NCBI GenBank assembly: GCA_025965315.1
Contig: JAOPXD010000113.1
Coordinates: 1-36,723, forward strand
Direction: 5' to 3'
Source: Marmoricola sp.
GTDB lineage: Bacteria; Actinomycetota; Actinomycetes; Propionibacteriales; Nocardioidaceae
Length of the DNA: 36,723 bases
Part shown: piece after piece, positions 107-34,738 of the stretch
Numbering within the stretch: position 1 is the stretch's first letter
Layout of the letters: each line of letters begins with the position of its first letter
Notes under the pieces: model-generated
The model's input: the letters and a program-made list of their open reading frames with translations, nothing else
Told to the model about the DNA's origin: nothing
The model's database searches: none
Position numbers and translations under genes: made by a program

Positions 107-763
107 TCAAGCCTTCTTGGCGGGTGCGTTCTTGGCGGGTGCCTTCTTGGCGGGTGCCTTCTTGGCGGGAGCCTTCTTGGCAGGTGCCTTCTTGGCGGGA
201 GCCTTCTTGGCGGGAGCCTTCTTGGCAGGTGCCTTCTTGGCGGGAGCCTTCTTGGCGGGAGCCTTCTTGGCGGGAGCCTTCTTGGCGGGAGCCTTCTTGG
301 CAGGTGCCTTCTTGGCGGGAGCCTTCTTGGCAGGTGCCTTCTTGGCAGGTGCCTTCTTGGCGGGAGCCGCCTTCGTCACGGTCTTCTTGGCCGCACTGGC
401 GGACTTGGTGGCCGTCTTCTTGGCAGCAGCGGCAGTCCGGGTCGCGACGGCGACCGGACGTGCAGCGGCGCGAGCCGGAAGCTTCTTGGCCCCGGAGACG
501 ATCGCCTTGAGCTCGGCGCCCGCGCTGAACTTCGGGACGTTGGTCTTCTTCGACTTCATCCGCGCACCCGTAGCAGGGTTGCGAACCCAACGAGCCTCAC
601 GAACGCGCTTCTCGAAGGACCCGAAGCCGGTGATGGCGACCTTCTCGCCCTTGGCCACCTCACGGGTGATGGTGTCGAGCACCGACTCCAGCGCGTGCGC
701 CGCCGCCTTCTTGTTTCCCTCGAACCGGGTTGCAAGTGCGTCGATCAACTGACTCTTGTTCAC
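107..763 (-). CDS. hup: HU-family nucleoid protein with long Lys/Pro/Ala tail
   Basis: This is a histone-like DNA-bending protein of about 218 residues. Residues 1-90 form the canonical HU fold, starting [11 protein letters not shown] and containing the GFGSFEKR and RNPATG DNA-binding-arm motifs. A basic Ala/Lys linker follows, then about 17 near-perfect APAKK pentapeptides. The tail resembles those of mycobacterial HupB and Streptomyces HupS, which bind DNA non-specifically and are acetylation targets. I chose the GTG start at 763 because HU proteins begin at this residue and GGGAAG lies just upstream. The frame is open for 36 more codons upstream, but that extension is unlike HU. It sits downstream of leuCD on the same strand, with the leuD terminator between, so it probably has its own promoter. 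Confidence 0.95.
108..367. repeat. 15-bp tandem repeat array encoding the HU tail
   Basis: Sixteen contiguous 15-bp units fill 121-360, with partial units at both ends. Two main unit types alternate irregularly: one starts CGGGAGC, the other CAGGTGC (plus-strand reading). They differ only at synonymous positions. One unit has an AAG-to-AAC change that gives AKN instead of AKK. Synonymous interspersion implies unit duplication or conversion while the peptide is kept under selection. Copy number is likely to vary between strains. Confidence 0.95.
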
Positions 764-14688: not shown

Positions 14689-16245
14689 TCACCGGAACGG
14701 GACCACCAGGTTCGCGAACACGAGGTTGTGGTCCGACGGCGTCCAGTGCCCCGCGGCGTTGTCGACGTTCTCGTACCGGGCGCTGCCGGCGAATCCCTCG
14801 AGCAGGATGTAGTCGGACCGCACGCCCACGCCGTACGCGCTGATCGTCTGCCGCTTGTGCTCGTTCGAGGTGGCGTAGCCGATCCCGACCTTCGTCCGCG
14901 CCGCCATCGCGTCGTAGTACCCGGCTCGGACGAAGGTCGGCTGAGCCTCGACCGCGCACGACTCCGATCCGCCGTCGTCGTCGCAGAACGGCTCGCGCAG
15001 GTACTTGAGGTCACCGGCGACGATCACCGGTAGGCCGCCGCTGTTGATGCTGTTGATCGCCCTGATCGCCACCTGCGCGTTCTCACCCGCGGTCTTCTTC
15101 GCGGCGAGCTGGGACGCCTTCGAGTTCTGGCCGAGGTGGATCGAGACCACGAACAGGTCCTGGCTCCTCGACGCGTCCCCCGGGTGCAGCGGGTGCAGAT
15201 CCGCCCACGGGGTCGGGATCTGGCGGAAGAACCCGGACGGGTTCGCGTTCGGGATGTCGAAGGACCCGTCCGAACGATCCTGGTAGAGGTCGTTGCGGTA
15301 CAGGATCTGTCCGTCCGCGCCGCGGACCGGCGGCACCGCGCTCCAGGACGAGCCGAGCACGCGCAGCATCGCGCTGACGGTCCCCGCGTTGGCCTCCTGC
15401 AGAGCGACGATCTGGAGATGGTGGCTGGCGATGTTGCGGGACAGCGCGTCGATCCTGGACCCGTCGCCCGCACCGGGGAAGAGCTCGACGTTGTAGGTAC
15501 CCATCGCGAGCTTGTCGCCGGCACCGGGATCGGGGGTGCCGGGGAAGTACGGCAACCAGCGGCTGTGCGGGACCTTGGTCGGCCGACAGCTGTTGTTCGC
15601 GTCGATCTGGGCGTACACCGGGTTCGCGTACGCGGTCGCCATCATCCGGTCCCCTGCGTGCGGACTGCTGGTCAGTCGCAGGGTCGCGCTCCGGGTGTAC
15701 TGGCTCACCCAGCCGTCGCCGCCGTTGACGTACGTGTCGGCGTACGGCCACCGGTCGAACGGCGCGGCGGACCAGCGGACCCGGAAGCGCGAGGCGTACG
15801 GCGTGTAGGGCCAGCTGAACCGGACGGCGTTGGAGAAGCCCGAGCCGGACAGCTTCGGCGCGACCGGGCGCTGGTAGGGGAACCGCAAGCCCTTCGCCGT
15901 CGACCACGGCCCGGTCCTGCCGCCGCGGACGGCCCGGACCTGCGCGTAGCTGGTGACGCAGCGGTTCAACCGCGGAGACGTCGCGCTCGTCCCGGTCACC
16001 GACAGGATCCGGGCCCGGGCGAGGCCGGCGGTGGAGCTCGCCCAGCGCACCTGGTAGCTCGAGCCCGACACCGCCTTCCAGTGGATCGTCAGCCGCGCGC
16101 CCGGCCAGTCCTCCCGTGCCGACGCGACACCGGCGACGCGTGCTGGCGCAGACCCTCCCGCGCTCGCACCGGGGGTCAGCCAGAAGACCGCCCAGAAGAG
16201 GGCACAGCCGACCAGCAGCACGGGCAGGCGAAGTCGCGAGATCAC
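14689..16245 (-). CDS. Secreted endonuclease/exonuclease/phosphatase-fold protein, copy 1
   Basis: The 518-residue protein has a signal peptide (residues 1-29, ending ASA). Two fibronectin-III-like modules follow (about 34-125 and 128-225; YQVRWASST is a diagnostic strand). A C-terminal EEP (DNase I-like) domain covers about 247-517. EEP motifs are GTYNVELF, ALQEAN (metal Glu), SIHLGQN, and the final PSDHNLVFA (catalytic His). The usual GDxN is GDLK, so the Asn is replaced. GTG 16245 has GGAAGGA five bases upstream. It is a paralogue of the next gene upstream, 16358-17953. Probable roles are extracellular nucleic acid or phospholipid hydrolysis, not determined. Confidence 0.86.
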   Translation of the reverse strand: MISRLRLPVLLVGCALFWAVFWLTPGASAGGSAPARVAGVASAREDWPGARLTIHWKAVSGSSYQVRWASSTAGLARARILSVTGTSATSPRLNRCVTSYAQVRAVRGGRTGPWSTAKGLRFPYQRPVAPKLSGSGFSNAVRFSWPYTPYASRFRVRWSAAPFDRWPYADTYVNGGDGWVSQYTRSATLRLTSSPHAGDRMMATAYANPVYAQIDANNSCRPTKVPHSRWLPYFPGTPDPGAGDKLAMGTYNVELFPGAGDGSRIDALSRNIASHHLQIVALQEANAGTVSAMLRVLGSSWSAVPPVRGADGQILYRNDLYQDRSDGSFDIPNANPSGFFRQIPTPWADLHPLHPGDASRSQDLFVVSIHLGQNSKASQLAAKKTAGENAQVAIRAINSINSGGLPVIVAGDLKYLREPFCDDDGGSESCAVEAQPTFVRAGYYDAMAARTKVGIGYATSNEHKRQTISAYGVGVRSDYILLEGFAGSARYENVDNAAGHWTPSDHNLVFANLVVPFR

Positions 16246-16357: not shown

Positions 16358-17953
16358 TCACTCGCTGTAGGGAACGGTCGTCACCGCATAGATCAGGTTG
16401 TGGTCGCTCGGGTACGGGTCCGGCCAACCAGCGGTGACCATGGCCGGGAAGGTCCGGTTCGCGACGTTCTCGTACTTCGCCACGCCGGTGAAGCCGAGCA
16501 GCATCAGGTGGTCCGACCGCACCCCTACGCCGTACGCGACGTTCGGGGTCTGGACCTTGTGGGTCCCCGAGGTCGCGTACTGGGTCCCCACCTTCTGCAC
16601 GGCCGCCATCGCGTCGTAGTAGCCGGCGCGAACGAACCGGACCGGCGACTCGATGTGGCCCGGCTCCTCGGCGAACCGGTTGCTCTGGGTCGTGTCCTCG
16701 CGCAGGTACCGGTAGTCACCGGCCGCGACCACGGGCGCCACCGGTGCCGTGTCGACTGCGGTGATCTGATCCATCAGGTAGGAGCCGGCCGCACCGTTGT
16801 CCGACTTCTGCTGGGCGATCGTGCCGGTGGTCGAGTCGATGTGGACCGAGACCACAAAGATGTCCTGGCTGTTCGCGGTTGCGCCGGCATCCACCCGGTG
16901 CAGCCGGACCCACGGAGTCGTGGCCGGGATCCCGGCTGGCGGAGTCGCGAAGATGCCGTGCGCGACGTCCTGGTAGACCCCGGTGCGCCAGATGATCTGG
17001 CCGGATCCGGACCCGTACGACGTCCAGTCCGAGTTCGTGAGGCTGTTCAGGGCGCTGGCCAGTGCGGTTCCGGTCCCGTTGTTCGCCTCCTGCAGGGTGA
17101 CGACCTGCAGCCCGAGGCCGCTCGCATCGGCAGTGTCGATGTTCTTGGCCAGCGCGGCGACCCTTGCTTGACGCTTGGTCGGGTCCGGATCGTTCGTCGT
17201 CCCGGGGAAGTGCTCGACGTTGTAGCTACCGACCGCCAGGGGGTCTCCGGTCGTGCCCGGGTTGCCTGCCGCCGGGAAGAACGGTTTGGGGCCGGCCGAC
17301 TGCACGCTGGTGGTCGAGCAGGCGCGGTTGGCCTGGATCCGGGCATAGACAGGATTGGCGTACGCCGTACCCATCTGCTGGTCCCCCGGGCCGTACTCGG
17401 CCGGTGTCGGCAGGTTCAGGGTCGCCGAGGTCGTCGTCGCGCTGACCGTCTGGCTCTTGATCGGGGACAGGCTCGAAGGAGCTGCGTACCAGTGGATCGT
17501 GTAGCTGGCCGCGTTGGTGACCGCAGGCCAGGTGAGCTCGACCGCGTTCGGCTTGCCCACGGAGTTCATCGTCGGGACGCCGGGCTTGCCGATCTTGAAC
17601 TTCAGCGACTTCGCCGTGGACCAGGGCCCGTACTTCCCGCTCTTCTTCGCACGAACCTGGCCGTAGGTCGTCGTGCACCGGTTCTCGACCGGCGACGTGG
17701 CGCTGGTCCCGGTGACGGCGTACTTCTTGGCCGACTTGAGCTTGGACGTGGAACTGGCCCAGCGCACCTGGTACGTCGCGCCGCTGACCTTCTTCCACTT
17801 GAGCTTCAGCGTCGAGCCGGCGAAGTACTGACCGTTGCTCGCCAGCCCGCTGACCTTGGGCACGCCGGACGCTTGTGCAGACGAGGCCGAGAGTCCGACG
17901 GCGATGAGTGCGCCGACCAGCGTGACGATGATCAGGCGGGAACGAGAGAGCAA
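16358..17953 (-). CDS. Secreted endonuclease/exonuclease/phosphatase-fold protein, copy 2
   Basis: This 531-residue paralogue of the downstream gene has the same architecture: signal peptide (1 to about 29, ending AQASG), two fibronectin-III-like modules (YQVRWASST again; Lys-rich), and an EEP domain. Motifs are GSYNVEHFPG, TLQEAN, SVHID, RSDHLMLL and PSDHNLIYA. GDYR stands where GDxN is expected, the same Asn loss as copy 1. I chose TTG 17953 because it directly precedes the signal peptide and has GGAAGG nine bases upstream. The open frame continues upstream without signal-like sequence. The strings SYNVE, QEAN and VRAGYYDAMAA show clear common ancestry with copy 1. Confidence 0.84.
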   Translation of the reverse strand: MLSRSRLIIVTLVGALIAVGLSASSAQASGVPKVSGLASNGQYFAGSTLKLKWKKVSGATYQVRWASSTSKLKSAKKYAVTGTSATSPVENRCTTTYGQVRAKKSGKYGPWSTAKSLKFKIGKPGVPTMNSVGKPNAVELTWPAVTNAASYTIHWYAAPSSLSPIKSQTVSATTTSATLNLPTPAEYGPGDQQMGTAYANPVYARIQANRACSTTSVQSAGPKPFFPAAGNPGTTGDPLAVGSYNVEHFPGTTNDPDPTKRQARVAALAKNIDTADASGLGLQVVTLQEANNGTGTALASALNSLTNSDWTSYGSGSGQIIWRTGVYQDVAHGIFATPPAGIPATTPWVRLHRVDAGATANSQDIFVVSVHIDSTTGTIAQQKSDNGAAGSYLMDQITAVDTAPVAPVVAAGDYRYLREDTTQSNRFAEEPGHIESPVRFVRAGYYDAMAAVQKVGTQYATSGTHKVQTPNVAYGVGVRSDHLMLLGFTGVAKYENVANRTFPAMVTAGWPDPYPSDHNLIYAVTTVPYSE

Positions 17954-18033
17954 GACGAAAACCCTTCCTGGGGGGATTGCTTCCAGACTAGGTCGAAACG
18001 GGCGAAGAATCCTTCTTCCGAGCCTGATCAGTA

Positions 18034-18073
18034 CCCGGAACGGCGCGGACGAACAGTTCCGGGCAACTATGTT
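18034..18073 (+). promoter_or_regulatory. Inverted repeat and -10 box upstream of the secreted propeller-like gene
   Basis: CCCGGAAC (18034-18041) and GTTCCGGG (18056-18063) form a perfect inverted repeat with a 14-base spacer. It lies immediately before TATGTT (18068-18073), which ends 7 bases before ATG 18081. The placement over the expected -35 region suggests an operator. No -35 consensus is visible. Confidence 0.4.
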
Positions 18074-18080
18074 TCGCACC

Positions 18081-19622
18081 ATGAAGCGGTCCCTCCCAGC
18101 CGTGCTCGCTCTCGCGACCGTCGCCGTCCTCGCCGCGGTAGTGCCAGCCGCCCTGGCCTCGTCCGCCCTCCCGATCCCCTCTGATCCGCGCGACGCGCTC
18201 CTCAAGCCGTTCACCGGAACGCCTGCAGTGGCCCACCCGCTGCCGTTGCAGAGCATCCCGCAGAACCCGTACATGGCGGCCAACGGCGGCAGCAACATCC
18301 ACGACGACGCCTACCAGTCGGACGCCTACAACCAGCCCGGCCCGCTCGGACGCAACCTCAAGGTCAGGAGCACCGCGTTCGTCCAGGACTGCGGCTCGGT
18401 CACCTTCGACAAGGCAGGCAGGATCGTCACGGTGTGCGTCGGCGTCACCGGCGCCACCCTGCGGCTGATCAATCCGACGACCCTGGCGACGATCGCGTCG
18501 TACACCCTGCCGGCACGCAAGGACGTCACGACGTTCTCGTTCCAGAACTTCTCCGGTGGCGGCTACTTCTACCTCGACAACGCCGACCGGGCGGTGGTCT
18601 CCACGTTCACCGGCCACATCGTCACGATCCAGGACACCGGCTCGGCGCTGAAGAAGGTCCGCGACATCGACGTCAGTGCCGTCACCCAGGGCTCCGGGAT
18701 CCAGTCGGCACTCCCCGACTGGTCGAACCGGCTCTGGTTCGTCACCGTCTCGGGCAAGGTCGGCTTCGTCACCCCCGCCGGCGCCGTGCGCAGTGTCAGC
18801 CTGCCGGCGGGCGAGACCATCGCGAACAGCTTCGCGATGGACGAGTCGGGCGGGGTCTTCATCGTCTCGACGCACGCGTTGTACCGGTTCGACGTCCGTG
18901 CCGGGAAACCGTTCGTCACCTGGCGCCAGCCGTACGACGACGGGACCCGGATCAAGCCCGGCCAGGTCAGCCAGGGCAGCGGCACCACGCCGACGCTGAT
19001 CGGCGATGCCGACTCCCCCGGCGGCGGATCGATCGCGATCACCGACAACGCAGACCCGCGGATGCACGTGCTCGTGTTCCGGCGTGGCAAGGCCGGCCCC
19101 GGTCCCGCGCTCTGCAACCAGCCGATCTTCGGCGCGAACACCGGCTCCGACGAGAACAGCCTGGTCTCGGTCCCGGGTGGCGTGATCGCGGAGAACAATT
19201 ACGGGTACAGCGGACCACTCCCCAAGAAGGTCACGACCAGGACCCCGGACACGGTCCCGGGCGTCGTGAAGGTCGCGGTCGACTACCAGCACGGCGGCTG
19301 CCACGTCGCGTGGGAGAACGACACCGTGCGGCTGCCGTCCGTGGTCTCGAAGGCCGACCTGGCCACCGGACTGCTCTACGGCTACTCGCACCCCAGCGCC
19401 GCCGAGCTGCCCTGGAAGCGCACGCCCCTGCCCGAGCTCGCTGCCCCCGAGTCCTGGTTTTTCACCGCACTGGACCTACGCACCGGCAGGACGGTCTGGT
19501 CGCGACTGGCGGGCAGCAACCTCGGCTTCAACAACAACTACGCCCCGGTGAGCATCGGGCCGGACGGGGCCGCGTACGTCGGCAGCCTGGGCGGCCTGAT
19601 CAGGATCGCGGACTCGGACTGA
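18081..19622 (+). CDS. Secreted beta-propeller-like (quinoprotein-type) hypothetical protein
   Basis: The 513-residue product has a clear signal peptide (MKRSLPAVLALATVAVLAAV region, cleavage near ALASS). Repeated beta-strand blocks follow that resemble PQQ/YVTN-type propeller blades: GRIVTVCVGVTGATLRLINP, GGVFIVSTHALYRFDVRAGK and GAAYVGSLGGLIRIADSD, the last as a closing blade. Four cysteines could pair. No enzymatic motif is evident. ATG 18069 four codons upstream is an alternative start; I prefer 18081 because the -10 box would give a leaderless mRNA starting there. It diverges from the secreted EEP gene. Confidence 0.78.
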   Translation: MKRSLPAVLALATVAVLAAVVPAALASSALPIPSDPRDALLKPFTGTPAVAHPLPLQSIPQNPYMAANGGSNIHDDAYQSDAYNQPGPLGRNLKVRSTAFVQDCGSVTFDKAGRIVTVCVGVTGATLRLINPTTLATIASYTLPARKDVTTFSFQNFSGGGYFYLDNADRAVVSTFTGHIVTIQDTGSALKKVRDIDVSAVTQGSGIQSALPDWSNRLWFVTVSGKVGFVTPAGAVRSVSLPAGETIANSFAMDESGGVFIVSTHALYRFDVRAGKPFVTWRQPYDDGTRIKPGQVSQGSGTTPTLIGDADSPGGGSIAITDNADPRMHVLVFRRGKAGPGPALCNQPIFGANTGSDENSLVSVPGGVIAENNYGYSGPLPKKVTTRTPDTVPGVVKVAVDYQHGGCHVAWENDTVRLPSVVSKADLATGLLYGYSHPSAAELPWKRTPLPELAAPESWFFTALDLRTGRTVWSRLAGSNLGFNNNYAPVSIGPDGAAYVGSLGGLIRIADSD

Positions 19623-19692: not shown

Positions 19693-21774
19693 ATGAGCAG
19701 GAACCTGAGCCTTCGCGTGACCGGCCTGCTGGTGCTGATGTTCGCACTAGGCATCGGCGCGGTAACGACCTCGGCGACGGGCGCGCACATCGGCTTCATG
19801 TGGCCGGTGGGCCTGGCCTCGGGCACCTTGGTGATCGCGCCTCGCCGGTACACGCCGTACCTGGTGCCGCTGATCGCGGTCCTCGCCGCGCTCTCGTACG
19901 TCATCGGCGGGTACCCGGGCGACGTGGCGGTGGGCTACGGGGTCGGGATCGCTCTGGAGGCCGTCGTCGCCCAGAGCGTGCTCACCGTGGGCTGGACCCA
20001 ACGGCTGATCCTGGTCGACATCAACGACCTCGGCAGGTTCGCGCTCGCCTGCCTGCTCGGTTCGCTCTCGGCCGCCTTCATGTTCACCATCGTCGCCTCG
20101 CTGACCGGCTTCGGCGTCCCGTGGCGGGTCGGGGTCGCCGTCCTCGTGACCCACACCGCGGGCGAGGCGATCCTGCTCGGGGTCTTCAAGCAGCAGCTCG
20201 GATCGGGCCAGTCCTACGGGATCACCGAGCGCACCATCGCCTGGACCCTGACCATCTGGGTCACGGTGCTGGCCTTCATCCCGCACGAGTTCCCGAGCAC
20301 GGCGTTCCTGATCATCCCGCTGCTGGGCTGGGTGGCCTTCCGGGCGCCGATGCGCGAGGCCATGTTCCAGCTCGTCACCGTCGGGGTGATCTCGAGCGCC
20401 CTCACCAATGCCGGACACGGGCCGTTCACGGACCCGGTGCTGATCAACCGGCTCGACCCCGAGTTCCAGCTGATGCCGCTGCAAGCCTTCCTGCTGGCCT
20501 GCGCGATGGTGTCGATCCCGTTCTCGATGGCGGTCTCGATGCAGCGGCGCAGTGCGGCCTCGGCGCTGCGTGAACGTGCGCGGAGCGAGCTGCTGGTCCA
20601 GAGCGCGCGCGGCATCGCGATCATCGGAACCGACGACATCGGTCGGATCAACCTGTTCAGCCCCGGCGCCGAGTCGATCCTCGGGTACACCCCGGAGGAG
20701 GTCTTCGGGCAGTCGACGCGGATGTTCCACACCGAGGCCGAGCTCGCCCGGCACGCGCGCGAGCTCCGGGTGGACCCGACGTACGTGTCGGTGGTGCGAG
20801 CCACCGGCGAGCTGCCCCCGGGCACCGCCAGGATCTGGCAGTACGTCCGCAAGGACGGCATCCCGCGCACGCTGTCGACGATCCTCAGCCCGATCACCGA
20901 CGACACCGGGAACTTCCTCGGGTACGTCGCCACCGCCGACGACATCACCGACCGGATCGACGCACAGGTCGCACTGGAGAAGGCGCTGCGGACCGAACGC
21001 CGCGCGGTCCGTCGGCTGACCGAGATCGACCAGGTCAAGGACGCGTTCGTGTCCTCGGTCAGCCACGAGCTGCGGACCCCGATCACCAACATCGTCGGCT
21101 ATCTCGAGCTCCTGATGGACGGCGTCTACGGCTCCCCCAATACCGAGCAGATCGACGCGATGAACCGGATCGACCTGAACAGCCACCGGCTGCTCACCCT
21201 GATCGACGACCTGCTGACGCTCTCGAGCATGGAGAGCATCGACCAGCGGCGCCGCCGCGGTCAGGTCGACCTGGCCGGGGTGGTCACCAAGGCCTCGGAG
21301 ATGGTCCTGCCGAGCCTCACCGGCCGGAGCCTGGTCCTCCAGCTCGACCTGCCCGACGAACGGGTCGCGGTGACCGGCGACGCCGGCGAGCTCGAGCGCC
21401 TGGTGATCAACCTCGCGACCAACGCGGTGAAGTTCACCCCGGACGGTGGCCGGATCGTGCTGCGCCTCCGGGCTGCCGACGGGACCTGCGGACCGACGAT
21501 CGAGGTCGCCGACACCGGGGTCGGTATCCGCGAGGAGGACCGCGCGCTCCTCTTCACCCGGTTCTTCCGTGCCCCCGACGCCCACGAGCGGGGCGTGCCC
21601 GGGAGCGGGCTCGGGCTCTCGATCGCCAAGGCCATCGCCGACGTCCACCGTGGCACGATCAGCGCGATCTCCGAGCCCGGGAAGGGTTCCACCTTCCGGG
21701 TGGAGTTCGCGGGAGGACCGCCCGACATCGATCACGACGGCACCCTGCTCGACGCCGCTACGGACGAGCAGTGA
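19693..21774 (+). CDS. MASE1-type membrane sensor histidine kinase with PAS domain
   Basis: The 693-residue kinase has a membrane-sensing N-terminus with about eight transmembrane helices (1-285, MASE1-like). A PAS domain follows (about 303-425, ending DDITDRIDAQ). HisKA carries SSVSHELRTPITN (His458) and the HATPase domain (about 560-675) has NLATNAVKFT, DTGVGI and GSGLGLSIAKAIADVH. ATG 19693 has GGAGGAGGG upstream, one of the best ribosome sites in the window. TACTGT at 19655 is a possible -10. No response regulator is adjacent; the next gene, overlapping by 4 bp, is a DNA methylase. It is therefore an orphan kinase by position. Confidence 0.93.
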   Translation: MSRNLSLRVTGLLVLMFALGIGAVTTSATGAHIGFMWPVGLASGTLVIAPRRYTPYLVPLIAVLAALSYVIGGYPGDVAVGYGVGIALEAVVAQSVLTVGWTQRLILVDINDLGRFALACLLGSLSAAFMFTIVASLTGFGVPWRVGVAVLVTHTAGEAILLGVFKQQLGSGQSYGITERTIAWTLTIWVTVLAFIPHEFPSTAFLIIPLLGWVAFRAPMREAMFQLVTVGVISSALTNAGHGPFTDPVLINRLDPEFQLMPLQAFLLACAMVSIPFSMAVSMQRRSAASALRERARSELLVQSARGIAIIGTDDIGRINLFSPGAESILGYTPEEVFGQSTRMFHTEAELARHARELRVDPTYVSVVRATGELPPGTARIWQYVRKDGIPRTLSTILSPITDDTGNFLGYVATADDITDRIDAQVALEKALRTERRAVRRLTEIDQVKDAFVSSVSHELRTPITNIVGYLELLMDGVYGSPNTEQIDAMNRIDLNSHRLLTLIDDLLTLSSMESIDQRRRRGQVDLAGVVTKASEMVLPSLTGRSLVLQLDLPDERVAVTGDAGELERLVINLATNAVKFTPDGGRIVLRLRAADGTCGPTIEVADTGVGIREEDRALLFTRFFRAPDAHERGVPGSGLGLSIAKAIADVHRGTISAISEPGKGSTFRVEFAGGPPDIDHDGTLLDAATDEQ

Positions 21775-25755: not shown

Positions 25756-26229
25756 ATGACCTCCCGACTCACGCCCGGCGACGCAGCGCCGACCTTCGAC
25801 CTTCCGACCGACGACGGCGGCACCGTCAACCTGGCCGATCTCCGCGGCCGCAAGGTGATCGTTTACTTCTACCCGGCCGCGATGACCCCGGGCTGCACCA
25901 AGCAGGCGTGTGACTTCACCGAGTCCCTGAACACCCTGGAGACGGCCGGCTACACCGTCGTCGGGATCTCCCCGGACAAGCCCGAGAAGCTCGCGAAGTT
26001 CCGTGAGCGCGACAGCCTGACGATCACCCTCGCCTCGGACGCGGACCGATCGGTGATGACGGCCTACAGCGCCTTCGGCGAGAAGAAGCTGTACGGCAAG
26101 GTCGTCCAGGGCGTGATCCGTTCGACGATCGTCGTGGACGAGGAAGGCTTGGTCAGCCTCGCGCAGTACAACGTCAAGGCCACCGGCCACGTTTCGAAGT
26201 TGCGTCGCGACCTCGGACTTGACGCCTAA
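25756..26229 (+). CDS. bcp: Thioredoxin-dependent thiol peroxidase (atypical 2-Cys peroxiredoxin)
   Basis: The 157-residue Bcp/PrxQ peroxiredoxin reduces hydroperoxides with thioredoxin. The active-site block YFYPAAMTPGCTKQACDF contains peroxidatic Cys47 and resolving Cys52, the five-residue spacing of the atypical two-cysteine type. A conserved Arg lies in GVIRSTIVVDEEG. It is cytoplasmic. The mRNA is probably leaderless. A tRNA gene begins 11 bases after its stop codon and may be co-transcribed. Confidence 0.96.
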   Translation: MTSRLTPGDAAPTFDLPTDDGGTVNLADLRGRKVIVYFYPAAMTPGCTKQACDFTESLNTLETAGYTVVGISPDKPEKLAKFRERDSLTITLASDADRSVMTAYSAFGEKKLYGKVVQGVIRSTIVVDEEGLVSLAQYNVKATGHVSKLRRDLGLDA

Positions 26230-26240
26230 ACTCTGGTTCG

Positions 26241-26313
26241 GCGCCCGTAGCCCAACGGCAGAGGCACATCGTTTAGGTCGATGGCAGTGAGAGTTCGAAT
26301 CTCTCCGGGCGCA
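26241..26313 (+). tRNA. tRNA with UAG (Leu, CUA-reading) anticodon but class I body
   Basis: The 73-nt cloverleaf folds well. Acceptor GCGCCCG (26241-26247) pairs with CGGGCGC (26306-26312) and the discriminator is A26313. Anticodon stem CATCG/CGATG closes loop TTTAGGT, so the anticodon is TAG (26274-26276) with G37. The T-arm is GAGAG-TTCGAAT-CTCTC. The D-stem is GCCC with GAGGC and needs a bulged A26262. The variable loop is only GCAGT. A normal tRNA-Leu is class II with a long variable arm. The body looks to me more like bacterial tRNA-Arg (from memory). CCA is not encoded. TAAACT, overlapping the bcp stop, could be a -10. Amino acid identity is uncertain. Confidence 0.85.
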
Positions 26314-26314
26314 C

Positions 26315-26941
26315 TCAGGTCAGGGCGGACGTGACGATCGGGGCGATCGCGCGCAGGGACATCCCCCGGTGCGAGATCAGGTCCTTCTCGGCCGGGCTCA
26401 TCTCCGCTGAGGTGCGATCCCCGTCCTGGTCGTCGGGGACGAACAGGACGTCGTACCCGAAGCCGCCGGCTCCGCGGACCTCGCGGATGACCCGGCCGCG
26501 CATGACGCCGTCGACGAGCTCCTCGTGGACGGTCCCGGCTGCGTCGGCGTACACGAGCGCCACTGCGCACCGGAACTCCGCACCACGGCGCCCGTCCGGT
26601 ACGTCGGCGAGCTGGTCGAGCAGCAGCCGGTTGTTGCGGTCGTCGTCCTTCGGCGGCCCCGACCAGCGAGCCGAGAGCACCCCCGGCATCCCGTTGAGCG
26701 CATCCACGCAGAGTCCGCTGTCGTCGGCCAGCGACGGCAGCCCGGAGACCGCGAACCCCGCGCGTGCCTTGAGCAGCGCGTTGCCGGCGAAGTCGGGCTC
26801 GTCCTCGACCGGTTCGTCGTACGGCGGCACGTCGTCGAGGCCGATCACGCGCAGCCCGGGCAGGGTCCCGCCCAGGATGCGCTGCATCTCGGCGAGCTTC
26901 TTGGCGTTGCGCGAGGCCAGGAAGATCTCGACCGCGGTCAT
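26315..26941 (-). CDS. rdgB: XTP/dITP pyrophosphatase (RdgB/HAM1)
   Basis: The enzyme removes dITP, ITP and XTP from nucleotide pools, releasing pyrophosphate. It has 208 residues, normal for the family. Motifs are FLASRNAKKLAEM (substrate/metal region), LADDSGLCVDAL, GFGYDVLFVPD, EMSPAEKDLISHRGMSLRA. ATG 26941 overlaps the rph stop by one base. Its stop lies one base past the 3' end of the convergent tRNA, so the two units are packed with no room for a terminator between them. Confidence 0.96.
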   Translation of the reverse strand: MTAVEIFLASRNAKKLAEMQRILGGTLPGLRVIGLDDVPPYDEPVEDEPDFAGNALLKARAGFAVSGLPSLADDSGLCVDALNGMPGVLSARWSGPPKDDDRNNRLLLDQLADVPDGRRGAEFRCAVALVYADAAGTVHEELVDGVMRGRVIREVRGAGGFGYDVLFVPDDQDGDRTSAEMSPAEKDLISHRGMSLRAIAPIVTSALT

Positions 26942-27666
26942 CAGAGCGAGGTCGCCAGGGCTTCGTGCTGGAGCCGGGTCAGGTCGGCACAGCCCTTCTC
27001 GGCCAGCGCGAGCAGGGCGTCGAGCTCGCTGCGGTTGAACGGTGCGCCCTCGGCGGTGCCCTGGACCTCGATGAAGGACCCGTCGCCGTTCATGACCACG
27101 TTCATGTCGGTCTCGGCACGGACGTCCTCCTCGTAGGGAAGGTCGAGACGCGGGACGCCACCGATGATGCCGACCGACACCGCGGCCACCGAGGCCACCA
27201 GCGGCTCACCGGCGAGCGCGCCCTGCGCCTTGAGGTGGGCGACCGCATCGGCCAGAGCCACGTAGGCGCCGGTGATGGCCGCCGTACGGGTGCCGCCGTC
27301 GGCCTGGAGCACGTCGCAGTCCAGCACGATCGTGTTCTCGCCGAGAGCCTTGTAGTCGATCGCAGCGCGCAGCGAGCGGCCGATCAGTCGGGAGATCTCG
27401 TGGGTGCGGCCGCCGATCCGGCCCTTGACCGACTCGCGGTCGGAGCGGGTGTTCGTGGCTGAGGGGAGCATCGCGTACTCGGCGGTGACCCAGCCCAGGC
27501 CGGAGCCCTTGCGCCAGCGCGGTACGCCGACGCTCGCCGACGCAGCGCAGAGCACCTTGGTGCGTCCGAACTCCACCAGCACCGAGCCCGCCGGGTGGTC
27601 CTGCCAGTTCCGGGTGAAGGTGATCGGGCGGAGTTCGTCGTCGGCGCGGCCGTCTGCTCGGGTCAT
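26941..27666 (-). CDS. rph: Ribonuclease PH
   Basis: This phosphorolytic 3'-5' exoribonuclease trims tRNA 3' ends. It has 241 residues, as usual. Motifs are [22 protein letters not shown] at the start (split here by positions about 13-34), [21 protein letters not shown] and [17 protein letters not shown]. It forms a two-gene operon with rdgB, the same order as in Mycobacterium and Streptomyces. The minus-strand hexamer TAGGCT ends 6 bases before the ATG, with no Shine-Dalgarno, so its mRNA is probably leaderless. Confidence 0.97.
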
Positions 27667-27738: not shown

Positions 27739-28527
27739 CTACTTCACCTCGGTGCGCAGCACCCGCCACACACCGATCACGAACGGCAGCAGGACCCAGA
27801 AGGCGCCCGTCACCAGGAGCTGGCTCCACTCCTTGCCGCTCAGGTTCCCCTCGCCGAAGGTGAACAAGTTGCCCTGCGCTGTCTTGAAGTCGAGCCAGCC
27901 CGCCTTGTCCGTCAGCGACGGGATCACGTTCACGAGGATCGTGATCACCTGCGGAAGCACGAAGTAGGTCACGATCGCTCCGGCGCTGGCGAGCAGCAGC
28001 AGTCCGAAGCTGAAGCCTTGGGCCGTACCGGTGAACTGTCCGACCGAGATCTTGAGGATGTCGATCGGAGTGAAGTCGGACCAGCGGTTGCTGCCTCCGA
28101 AGATCACGGTCGTCACCAGGGCTACGACGAACGAGAGCACGATCGCCGCCGCAGCGAGCACGGACATGGCGAGGACCTTCGCTCCTAGTACCCGACCACG
28201 GTGCGGTACCAGGGTGAAGGTCACCATCCCGGTGCGCTGGCCCCACTCCTGGGTCACCAGCAGGATGCCCAGCACCGGAAGCAGGAAGCCCTGCGGCGTG
28301 CCGGCGAAGCCGAGGAAGTCACCGAAGTTCCGGTCCTGGTCGTGCCCGACGAACCCGAAGATGATGCTCGCGATAGCAGTGATCGCCCCGATGGCGACCA
28401 ACAGCCACATGCCCGCCTTGGTGTCGATCATCTTGCGCAGCTCGACCCTGACGAGCCGGGACAGCGGGATGCCCGGGGTCTTCGAGACGTCGAGCGTATC
28501 GCCGTACGGAACTGTCGTGGTACTCAT
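27739..28527 (-). CDS. ABC-2 type transporter permease
   Basis: The 262-residue protein has six likely transmembrane helices (about 40-62, 78-94, 118-143, 163-186, 190-207 and 236-254). The cytoplasmic N-terminus carries the ABC-2 style LVRVELRKMIDTKAGMWLL. It should form the membrane channel for the ATPase encoded just upstream, whose stop it overlaps (ATGA). The substrate is unknown; related systems export drugs, bacteriocins or lipids. Adjacent two-component genes suggest induction by envelope stress. Confidence 0.9.
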   Translation of the reverse strand: MSTTTVPYGDTLDVSKTPGIPLSRLVRVELRKMIDTKAGMWLLVAIGAITAIASIIFGFVGHDQDRNFGDFLGFAGTPQGFLLPVLGILLVTQEWGQRTGMVTFTLVPHRGRVLGAKVLAMSVLAAAAIVLSFVVALVTTVIFGGSNRWSDFTPIDILKISVGQFTGTAQGFSFGLLLLASAGAIVTYFVLPQVITILVNVIPSLTDKAGWLDFKTAQGNLFTFGEGNLSGKEWSQLLVTGAFWVLLPFVIGVWRVLRTEVK

Positions 28528-30747: not shown

Positions 30748-31403
30748 GCGAGCCGATCAGGCTCCTGATCGTCGACGACGACCCCTTGGTCCGGAGCGGG
30801 CTCGCGATGATCCTCGGCGGCTCCCCGACGCTGGCCGTCGTCGGACAGGCGGCCGACGGGCTCCAGGGAATCGCGGCCGTCAAGGAGCACCGTCCCGACG
30901 TCGTGCTCATCGACATCCGGATGCCGGTGATGGACGGGATCGAGGCCACGACCGCCCTGGTCGCGCTCCCGGATCCGCCGAAGGTGATCGTGCTGACCAC
31001 CTTCGACGCCGACGACTACGTGATGCGCGCGTTGGCGGCCGGGGCGAGCGGTTTCCTGCTCAAGGACACCGCGCCCGAGGCCATCGTCGAGGCCGTGCAC
31101 CGGGTTGCCGGCGGTGATCCGATGCTCTCCCCCAGCGTGACGACCACCCTGATCCACCAGCTGACCACCCAGCACTCGCCGGACCGCAGCCACGCCGCGC
31201 TGCAACGCCTCGAGCGCCTCACCGAACGTGAGCACGAGGTCGCCCTCGCGGTGGGGCGTGGCCTGAGCAACGCGGAGATCGCCGGCGAGCTCTACCTCAG
31301 CGTCCCGACGGTCAAGGCCCACATCGGGCGGCTGTTCGCCAAGCTCGAGGTCGAGAACCGGGTGCAGATCGCGCTATGCGTCCACGACGCCGGGCTGGGC
31401 TGA
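30744..31403 (+). CDS. NarL/LuxR-family response regulator
   Basis: The 219-residue regulator has a receiver domain with the acidic pocket DDD (11-13), phospho-acceptor Asp57 (LIDIRMPVMDG) and conserved Lys in FLLKDT. A C-terminal LuxR helix-turn-helix follows (LTEREHEVALAVGRGLSNAEIA, split by positions about 157-178; and VPTVKAHIGRLFAKL). I chose GTG 30744, which overlaps the kinase stop and has GGGAG seven bases upstream. Codon 211 (31374-31376) is CTA, a codon read by the unusual tRNA of this window. It pairs with the kinase and likely controls the divergent exporter. Confidence 0.95.
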   Translation: MSEPIRLLIVDDDPLVRSGLAMILGGSPTLAVVGQAADGLQGIAAVKEHRPDVVLIDIRMPVMDGIEATTALVALPDPPKVIVLTTFDADDYVMRALAAGASGFLLKDTAPEAIVEAVHRVAGGDPMLSPSVTTTLIHQLTTQHSPDRSHAALQRLERLTEREHEVALAVGRGLSNAEIAGELYLSVPTVKAHIGRLFAKLEVENRVQIALCVHDAGLG

Positions 31404-33128: not shown

Positions 33129-34352
33129 TCACCTATCGGCGCGGCGCGAGCCCTCAGGTTGGAACTTCGGGAGCAGTCCGACACCGAACACGATGAACCC
33201 GAGCCCGGCCAGCCCGGCTCCGACCAGGCTGGGCGCCCGGTAGCCGTGCCCGGCCTCGATCACCACCGACCCCAGCCAAGCGCCGAGACCGTTCGCGACG
33301 TTCAGGGCCGAGTGGTTCAGGGCGGCGCCGAGCATCTGGGCATCACCGGCAGCGTGCATCAGCCGGAGCTGGAGGTTGATCGCGACCACCGAACCGAGGA
33401 GGCCGACCACGCCGACGAGCACCCAGAGCGCGATCGGGGTGCCGGCGAGAAGCACGATCAGGACGAGCACCACGATCGTCGCCAGGAAGCCGGCGAGGAC
33501 CGACCGCTCGACGTTCCAGTCGGCGAGCCGGCCCGCGAGCCACGCGCCCAGGACCGAGCCGATGCCGTAGGCCAGCAAGAAGGACGGGATCGCGGAACGT
33601 GACATCCCGCCGACGTCGGTGACCAGCGGAGCGACATAGCTGTACATCGCGAAGATGCCGCCGAAGCCGACCATGCCGGCCGCCAGGGCGAACAGCACCT
33701 GGGGTCGTCGTAGCGCCTGGAGCTCGCCACGGACGGTGGCGTCCGGGTGGCCCGCCGTGCGTGGGACGAACACCAGCAGGCTTACCGCGGTGAGGACGGC
33801 GATCCCGAGCACGGCCCAGTAGGCGCTGCGCCAGCCGAGGTCCTGCCCGAGCCAGGTGCTGGCCGGGACACCGATGACCGTGGCCACCGACAAGCCGAGC
33901 ATCACCCCGCTGACGGCGCGTCCGCGTCGCTCGGGAGGCACCAGCGACGCCGCGATCAACGAGGCGACACCGAAGTAGGCACCGTGCGGCAGACCGGCGA
34001 CGAACCGCGCGACCATCACCTGGGTGTAGCCGTGCGCGAGAGCCGTCGCAGCGTTCCCGATCCCGAGCGCGAGCACCAGGCCGATCGCCAGCGCGCGACG
34101 CGGCAGCCTGGCTCCGAGCGACACGATCACCGGCGCACCGACGACCACCCCCAGCGCGTACGCCGAGATGATGTGCCCGGTCCTCGGGATCGAGGAGTGA
34201 ATGCCGGTGGCGATCTCCGGCAGCAGGCCCATCGTCACGAACTCGGTGGTGCCGATCGCGAAGCCGCCGAGCGCCAGTGCCGTGATCGCCAGTCCGACGT
34301 GCTTGGTGCGCACGGCGTCGAGCGGTGTCGAGGTCGTGCTCGTGGTCGTCAT
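33129..34352 (-). CDS. MFS transporter, DHA1-type (AraJ/CmlA-like)
   Basis: The 407-residue protein has 12 predicted transmembrane helices. The first helix region, LALGGFAIGTTEFVTMGLLP, is diagnostic of the DHA1 drug/sugar efflux branch that includes AraJ, YdhP and CmlA, and the motif RFVAGLPHGAYFGVA follows. I chose ATG 34352 because the N-terminus is Thr/Ser-rich and then hydrophobic; 27 further upstream codons are open but overlap the neighbouring gene. It is likely an efflux pump. It follows two small membrane proteins on the same strand. Confidence 0.9.
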   Translation of the reverse strand: MTTTSTTSTPLDAVRTKHVGLAITALALGGFAIGTTEFVTMGLLPEIATGIHSSIPRTGHIISAYALGVVVGAPVIVSLGARLPRRALAIGLVLALGIGNAATALAHGYTQVMVARFVAGLPHGAYFGVASLIAASLVPPERRGRAVSGVMLGLSVATVIGVPASTWLGQDLGWRSAYWAVLGIAVLTAVSLLVFVPRTAGHPDATVRGELQALRRPQVLFALAAGMVGFGGIFAMYSYVAPLVTDVGGMSRSAIPSFLLAYGIGSVLGAWLAGRLADWNVERSVLAGFLATIVVLVLIVLLAGTPIALWVLVGVVGLLGSVVAINLQLRLMHAAGDAQMLGAALNHSALNVANGLGAWLGSVVIEAGHGYRAPSLVGAGLAGLGFIVFGVGLLPKFQPEGSRRADR

Positions 34353-34359
34353 GTCGCGC

Positions 34360-34738
34360 TCATTCCGGGCGGGTTCGGTACAACCACCAGAGCCCGACGA
34401 ACGGCAGCACGAGCGGGACGTATCCGTACCCACTGCCGAACCCCGACCACACGGTCGCCTTGTGCGGGTCGCTCGTGTGAATGGTTGCCCCGACGATGAT
34501 CACGCCGAGCATCTCGACGACGACGGCGCAGGTGGCGACCGAGTGGCGACTGGTTCCCAGCGCCCAGGTGGCAACGATGTAGACGATTGCCGCGAACGCG
34601 GACAACGAGTACGCCAACGGAGCTTCGGACGCGTGCGCGATCAGCTGGTACGACGACCTTCCGCTCGCACTGAACGCAAAGATCCCGTAGACGAAGACGA
34701 GTACCCGACCGAAGCCGGTCCCGGTCGCCCGGCCCGCG

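Follow-up and report, generated by a model that had tools for sequence, protein, structure and literature searches.

A class I tRNA-Leu(UAG) alternates with its class II counterpart between bcp and rdgB in the Nocardioidaceae

The long variable arm is called specific for tRNA-Leu, tRNA-Ser and bacterial tRNA-Tyr in the available sections of a review that describes bacterial tRNA genes as structurally uniform (PMC4033280). In E. coli, according to the accessible part of PMC9976931, the leucine identity set consists of A73, the A15-U48 pair, G18G19 and A20a; the sequence and folding of the long arm are uncorrelated with leucylation, and truncated, arm-less tRNAs are still active. Short-armed forms have been mentioned in passing: a tRNA-Leu(TAG) with a short variable loop occurs in a tRNA gene cluster in genomes of the Mycobacterium mucogenicum clade (PMC6582537, in excerpt), and some Leu, Ser and Tyr tRNAs in one data set are short-armed (PMC2474678, in excerpt). 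For M. tuberculosis, tRNA-Leu-2, 3 and 5 are named as having long loops in the available text of PMC11541572, which implies that its other tRNA-Leu are not long-looped. The accessible portions of PMC9569102, PMC6297222 and PMC10264068 contain nothing on short-arm tRNA-Leu, and in the open-licence literature we found no systematic treatment of class I tRNA-Leu as a set, or of a locus that switches class, although either may have been described elsewhere. The molecule reported here is already visible in databases; the isoacceptor pattern to which it belongs and its recurrent swap appear undescribed in the literature searched.

The window analysed here is a stretch of 36,723 nucleotides from a Marmoricola sp. 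genome (GCA_025965315.1, contig JAOPXD010000113.1), in which a class I tRNA with a UAG anticodon had been recognised at 26241-26313. ARAGORN called this gene as tRNA-Leu(tag) at 26241-26314, and the Rfam model RF00005 matched 26241-26313 over its full length, not truncated, with 53.6 bits (E 5.8e-9), well above the gathering score of 29, which confirms the original prediction; its five-base variable loop GCAGT, anticodon TAG, G37 and A73 were each found again when the sequence was re-read (Table 1). The acceptor stem (7/7), anticodon stem (5/5) and T-stem (5/5) are fully paired and the anticodon loop has 7 nt. An intact cloverleaf with a variable loop of 5 nt places the tRNA in class I (variable loop of 4-5 nt) and outside class II (variable arm of >10 nt). 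The A at 26262, previously taken for a bulge in the D-stem, was misread: it belongs to the leucine-type D-loop CAACGGCAGA, which in the numbering assigned in this analysis comprises positions 13-21 with 20a and 20b, and AACGGCAGA, representing 9 of the 10 bases of this loop, recurs in the class II tRNA-Leu(CAG) of the same genome. An identical copy (100%) of the tRNA is present in another genome of the genus (G004), and class I homologues occupy the same site in congeners, including one assembled as a single contig (G009); chance or a fault of the assembly is thereby excluded. Elsewhere in the window, 107-754 (minus strand) encodes what by eye is an HU-like DNA-binding protein with a long tail of tandem AKKAP-type repeats, 33129-34433 (minus strand) an MFS exporter that resembles the Cmx/CmrA family and scores below the cut-off of that model, and 14689-16245 and 16358-18298 (minus strand) adjoining secreted proteins with C-terminal parts similar by eye, apparently a tandem duplication.

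Table 1. Coordinates of the tRNA, its parts, its neighbours and CTA codons in the window.
Position	Strand	Feature	Basis or remark
26241..26313	+	tRNA-Leu(UAG), class I, 73 nt, no encoded 3' CCA	ARAGORN, Rfam, sequence
26253..26262	+	Leucine-type D-loop CAACGGCAGA	contains A14, A15, G18, G19, A20a, G20b, A21
26274..26276	+	Anticodon TAG (UAG), decodes CUA	ARAGORN, sequence
26284..26288	+	Variable loop GCAGT, 5 nt; U48 able to pair with A15 (Levitt pair)	sequence
26313	+	Discriminator A73	sequence
26227..26232	+	-10-like TAAACT, overlaps the bcp stop codon	sequence
25756..26229	+	bcp, thioredoxin-dependent thiol peroxidase, left neighbour	NF006960, 147.5 bits (cut-off 140)
26315..26941	-	rdgB-like XTP/dITP diphosphatase, right neighbour	NF011397 169.2 bits, TIGR00042 136.8 bits; both below curated cut-offs
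26941..27666	-	rph, ribonuclease PH, next neighbour	annotated rph at matching loci
19747..19749	+	CTA codon, MASE1-type kinase gene	relatives counted: Leu 2, Phe 3
28186..28188	-	CTA codon, ABC permease gene	relatives counted: Leu 4
31374..31376	+	CTA codon, response regulator gene	relatives counted: Leu 4, Ile 4

The draft genome to which the window belongs (4.07 Mb in 217 contigs, 90.5% complete; the window is contig C36) contains 45 distinct tRNAs by ARAGORN, including five leucine isoacceptors. Those with the anticodons UAG, CAA and UAA have variable loops of 5 nt and are class I, and those with CAG and GAG have variable loops of 15 and 17 nt and are class II. The leucine isoacceptors of the complete congener G009 are split between the classes in the same way, as established from 17 stretches comprising all long tRNAs and the lowest-scoring short ones among 45 tRNA matches. 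RF00005 scored the other two class I tRNA-Leu of the genome at 53.3 and 52.9 bits, and the His and Lys tRNAs of the window at 64.2 and 70.0 bits. A search of this genome for a second, class II tRNA-Leu(UAG), suggested with the original prediction, revealed none, and the gene at 26241-26313 is the only UAG tRNA seen there. In aligned codon cells CTA, TTA and TTG together account for 279 of 8,623 leucine codons (3.2%), on which basis the class I tRNAs (UAG, UAA and CAA) would serve the rare leucine codons of high-GC actinobacteria and the class II tRNAs (CAG and GAG) the common ones. With respect to other tRNAs, a tRNA-Gln(UUG) of ~40 bits and 80 nt by ARAGORN was observed both in this genome (L048, G000:C193:4864-4942) and in G009 (L172, G009:C1:891853-891931), seemingly with extra nucleotides between the D-arm and the anticodon arm. 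Contigs G000:C76 and G000:C149 carry an identical Gly-Cys-Val/Val tRNA cluster in opposite orientations, an arrangement suggesting that the draft includes a duplicate or a second strain.

The leucine set defined in E. coli (A73, A15-U48, G18G19 and A20a) is present in its entirety in the tRNA at 26241-26313. We compiled 292 distinct class I tRNAs with leucine anticodons (375 places), drawn from 415 loci; in these related sequences, whose counts are not independent, A73 was found in 292 of 292, position 73 being fixed by no search pattern. Positions 15 and 48 were A-U in 277, G-C in 8 and A-C in 7, with base 48 free in three of the four class I patterns and fixed in the strict Actinomycetes one, and A15 fixed in all four. 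The patterns themselves prescribed A14, A15, G18, G19, the greater part of the D-loop and the spacing typical of class I, the conservation of which is therefore no evidence. A73 alone discriminates little, since it is also present in 22 of the 40 non-leucine tRNAs of this genome. Outside the anticodon and variable loop, the best matches within the genome were Leu-CAA (score 81), Leu-CAG (72), Arg-CCG (71) and Arg-ACG (70); the resemblance to tRNA-Arg that had been pointed out is thus real but modest, and two leucine tRNAs score higher. The identity elements of tRNA-Arg are A20 and C35. The tRNA has C20, a position that the original prediction had already remarked is not A, and A35; with the leucine set kept and these Arg features lacking, kinship with tRNA-Arg was rejected as the source of its identity. 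LeuRS would be expected to charge class I tRNA-Leu via A73, the A15-U48 pair and the corner of the D- and T-loops, and not via the long variable arm. LeuRS itself was not found in the draft of this genome, where weak matches were read as ValRS, MetRS and IleRS. It was above the cut-off in 18 of 18 relatives, with one gene each by our reading of the matches, and in a draft that is 90.5% complete its absence is taken as an assembly gap.

The CTA codons to which attention had been drawn, at 19747-19749, 19476-19478 (in the gene for a secreted propeller protein) and 31374-31376, are all present, and there are 7 CTA codons in plausible genes of the window; at 28186-28188, in the ABC permease gene, a looser count than that in Table 1 adds isoleucine in two more distant relatives. 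For the codon test, 30 genes of the window were aligned with orthologues from 30 relatives, each of which contributed 4 to 19 genes, giving 86,853 codon cells in all. CTA occurred in 22 cells, of which 17 were usable and 5 were dropped, a usable column being one with at least 4 other usable codons once CTA, TTA and TTG of the others had been left out. Leucine was the consensus in 14 of the 17 columns, and the exceptions were Pro (MTase 494), Phe (MASE1 18, Leu 2 versus Phe 3) and Val (RdgB 29, a position at which Leu stands in the window and in three congeners). The mean leucine share of CTA columns (0.81, 17 columns) was comparable to that of TTG (0.79, 149 columns) and CTT (0.78, 78 columns). 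Twelve of the 17 CTA columns derive from genomes known to have a class I UAG tRNA; leucine was the consensus in 9 of these 12, shared with Ile in one of the nine (RR 221), and the 3 misses all belong to the 12. The remaining five, from one class II genome and four untyped ones, were all leucine. As judged from this small and indirect sample, the CUA codon appears to be read as leucine, which is how the class I tRNA-Leu(UAG), once charged, would read it.

We then considered the site of the gene in relatives. None of 61 genomes of the family was found to have both a class I and a class II gene for one anticodon: class I versus class II CAA genes were seen in 10 versus 20 genomes and UAG genes in 16 versus 2, in each case with no overlap, and class II UAA was not seen with the class II pattern of this comparison, a pattern that misses a UAG type found later. 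A pattern for UAG genes of either class, which demands C at position 20, gave a single match in each of 33 genomes out of 62 and none in the other 29, so that tRNA-Leu(UAG) is the sole UAG tRNA where typed. Within the genus, 15 of 24 genomes were matched by this pattern, G001 and G006 were typed from fetched rph regions, and 7 are untyped (G003, G005, G355, G360, G363, G366 and G368); the typed genomes have a class I homologue at the same site in 13, including G009, and a class II gene in 4. With rph as the anchor for finding the locus, tRNA-Leu(UAG) was located between bcp and rdgB in 18 of 20 regions and was absent in G123 and G327; it is class II, with 83-84 nt, in G002, G011, G082 and G045 and class I in the other 14. 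At 29 of the 30 loci obtained with the either-class search, a set that overlaps the rph regions in some genomes, bcp adjoins the tRNA, and at the remaining one (G195) rdgB does, irrespective of class. Class I and class II tRNA-Leu(UAG) therefore alternate in place at the bcp-rdgB locus, and the genes of the two classes have different acceptor, D-stem and T-stem sequences. Of the 31 class I loci 21, and of the 17 class II loci 14, have a -10-like hexamer similar to that in Table 1 placed 4-14 nt upstream; some genomes appear twice in these counts, which have no chance control.

The history of the exchange was followed on trees of proteins, a tRNA of 73 nt being too short for a reliable tree. 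A tree of six proteins from 23 genomes of the genus, 16 of which were typed, shows 3 changes of class, each imposed by branches with good support. The tree built from bcp and rdgB covers 35 genomes (G195, which has no bcp, was left out), and 11 of its 32 inner branches are unresolved; here there are 8 class changes, 5 of them forced. Within the genus the tRNA has hence changed class no fewer than 3 times, and across the family sample no fewer than 5 times. Since the flanking genes broadly follow genus and species, the tRNA moved without bcp and rdgB; G367, G352 and G221 are exceptions, placed away from their own genera and each with less than half of the columns.

When the search was widened, 112 of 296 Actinomycetes genomes contained a match to a strict class I pattern open to any NAR anticodon, and the reversed pattern in the same search gave none among the matches listed. 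The 134 strict-pattern matches had the anticodons UAA (60), CAA (55) and UAG (19), and none had CAG or GAG. A class I pattern restricted to UAG detected at least 118 stretches in species genomes and at least 120 in viral contigs, and of the listed stretches 117/118 and 118/120, respectively, passed a cloverleaf filter. By their titles, the 80 named records among the listed matches are 75 Actinomycetota (Amycolatopsis, Nocardioides, Actinopolyspora, Corynebacterium flavescens, Acidimicrobiia and others), 4 Bacteroidota (L192, L205, L228 and L255) and 1 unplaced (L183); L205, the 3' half of which is not tRNA-like, was the only named record to fail the structure filter. Class I tRNA-Leu with GAG, CAG or AAG were few among the 292, with 7 in viral contigs and 1 in a Bacteroidota genome. 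In Gordonia phage GodonK and an Enterobacter Certrevirus the CAA genes passed the cloverleaf filter and the UAG genes failed it by one extra base before the T-loop. The Certrevirus UAG tRNA matched 251 phage records, 218 of them over at least 80% of the query, by sequence match to this tRNA and not by the variable loop of each, and the hosts of these phages range over Mycobacterium, Escherichia, Vibrio and Enterococcus. The class I tRNA-Leu family is widespread in Actinomycetes and viral contigs. Two of the Bacteroidota records (L228 and L255) have further class I tRNA-Leu genes nearby, as in tRNA arrays, and one viral contig (L357:2749-3002) carries class I tRNA-Leu with a CCAGC variable loop and the anticodons CAG and GAG, neither of which occurs among the 134 Actinomycete matches.

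The original prediction had offered two readings: either LeuRS accepts an unusual substrate, or another synthetase charges the tRNA and CUA codons receive a different amino acid. The latter, with the arginine, threonine, alanine or another enzyme responsible and CUA recoded as CUN is in some yeast mitochondria, could draw on the class I build, on the likeness to tRNA-Arg, whose scores lie near that of the class II Leu-CAG, on the 3 of 17 CUA columns that are not leucine and on the precedent of the yeast mitochondrial tRNA-Thr(UAG) and tRNA-Ala(UAG). The features of these two, as given in the accessible part of PMC7609411, are an 8-nt anticodon loop (Thr) and G3-U70 (Ala), whereas the tRNA described here has a 7-nt loop and G3-C70. 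Moreover, its leucine identity set is kept, with A-U and G-C at 15-48 in the family, C20 and A35 leave it without the features of tRNA-Arg, CUA columns are leucine in 14 of 17, and it alternates with a class II tRNA-Leu(UAG) at one locus. Recoding is not supported by these results and we regard it as barely credible. The alternative that the gene is a pseudogene or an unexpressed relic, CUA being read by some other tRNA, might be suspected from the rarity of CUA and from a score below those of the His and Lys tRNAs of the window; however, the lower score is common to the other two class I tRNA-Leu, the stems are all intact and conserved across congeners, and no second UAG tRNA was seen in the genomes that matched. 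The leucine anticodons CAG, GAG, CAA and UAA are, furthermore, not expected to read CUA by standard wobble, and a relic is accordingly very unlikely. A chief role outside translation, such as that of a donor for a tRNA-dependent enzyme, or the status of a phage-derived spare would fit the abundance of the family in phages and viral contigs, but is hardly tenable for the only UAG tRNA seen in its genome, which sits between housekeeping genes and alternates there with an ordinary tRNA-Leu. We consider it very probable that 26241-26313 is a working and presumably expressed class I leucine tRNA, charged by LeuRS and reading CUA as leucine, that it belongs to a class I family for rare codons and that it alternates with class II at its locus. 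The first of the two original readings is supported by the retained leucine elements, the two further class I isoacceptors, the leucine in CUA columns and the alternation with class II, all of which point to charging by LeuRS; the substrate is unusual in its class I build, but less so than had been thought, the form being widespread.

How the two classes came to alternate can be envisaged in more than one way. The class I and class II genes at bcp-rdgB are probably interchangeable alleles that replaced each other several times, conceivably by recombination between homologous neighbouring genes; alternatively, the ancestor may have carried both as a tandem pair, of which one copy or the other was later lost. 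The same mosaic, with flanks following the species, would be expected from such losses, yet none of the 33 matched genomes has both classes, the gap between the reading frames of bcp and rdgB in the window measures only 85 nt, 73 of them taken by the tRNA, and the class II gene of G011 stops ~10 nt short of the rdgB match; we thus hold loss from a tandem pair, as opposed to replacement, to be doubtful. As for replacement, we tentatively suggest a scenario in which two ancient alleles of one Nocardioidaceae locus have repeatedly replaced each other, a mobile class I tRNA-Leu lineage carried by phages having supplied the class I allele, perhaps since an arm-less tRNA escapes nucleases or toxins that recognise the arm.

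Overall, the best reading is that of a leucine tRNA that is unusual in structure, decodes in the ordinary way and has behaved unexpectedly in evolution. Three of the five leucine isoacceptors of one bacterium lack the long arm, contrary to the rule stated in the review cited above, and if charging by LeuRS holds true, they constitute a natural experiment showing that leucine identity in vivo does not require the arm. The repeated swap at a single locus, which left the neighbouring genes in place, provides pairs of related species for testing the role of the arm in charging, decoding and sensitivity to toxins, and for annotation a leucine anticodon on a class I tRNA is by itself no sign of recoding. 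Compared with the bacterial class II tRNA-Leu(UAG), the class I form shares the anticodon, A73, A14, A15-U48, G18G19, the A20a-type D-loop and the genomic locus, but is without the long arm, has a D-stem of GCC/GGC in place of GTG/CAC and differs in its acceptor and T-stem; these differences indicate a separate sequence lineage and not a mere deletion of the arm. The short-loop tRNA-Leu(TAG) of the M. mucogenicum clade is likewise a class I tRNA-Leu(UAG), but is, as far as the excerpted text of PMC6582537 goes, an additional, cluster-borne gene in genomes that also have a normal class II isoacceptor, whereas here it is the sole UAG tRNA, at a conserved chromosomal locus and accompanied by class I CAA and UAA. 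Phage tRNA-Leu (GodonK, Certrevirus and viral contigs) have the short-armed form and the D-arm motif in common with it, the GodonK tRNA-Leu(UAG) being 87.8% identical over the match, but they lie in phage tRNA arrays, and the UAG tRNAs of GodonK and Certrevirus are one base longer between the anticodon stem and the T-loop than the host form. The human mitochondrial tRNA-Leu(UUR) is similarly leucylated without a long arm, through A73 and A14 (PMC9976931, accessible part), but in an organelle, with its own LeuRS and a partly unfolded anticodon branch. Finally, the nematode nev-tRNAs, as described in the available sections of PMC4033280, also break the link between class I or class II build and codon set and represent the reverse case, a class II build reading class I codons.
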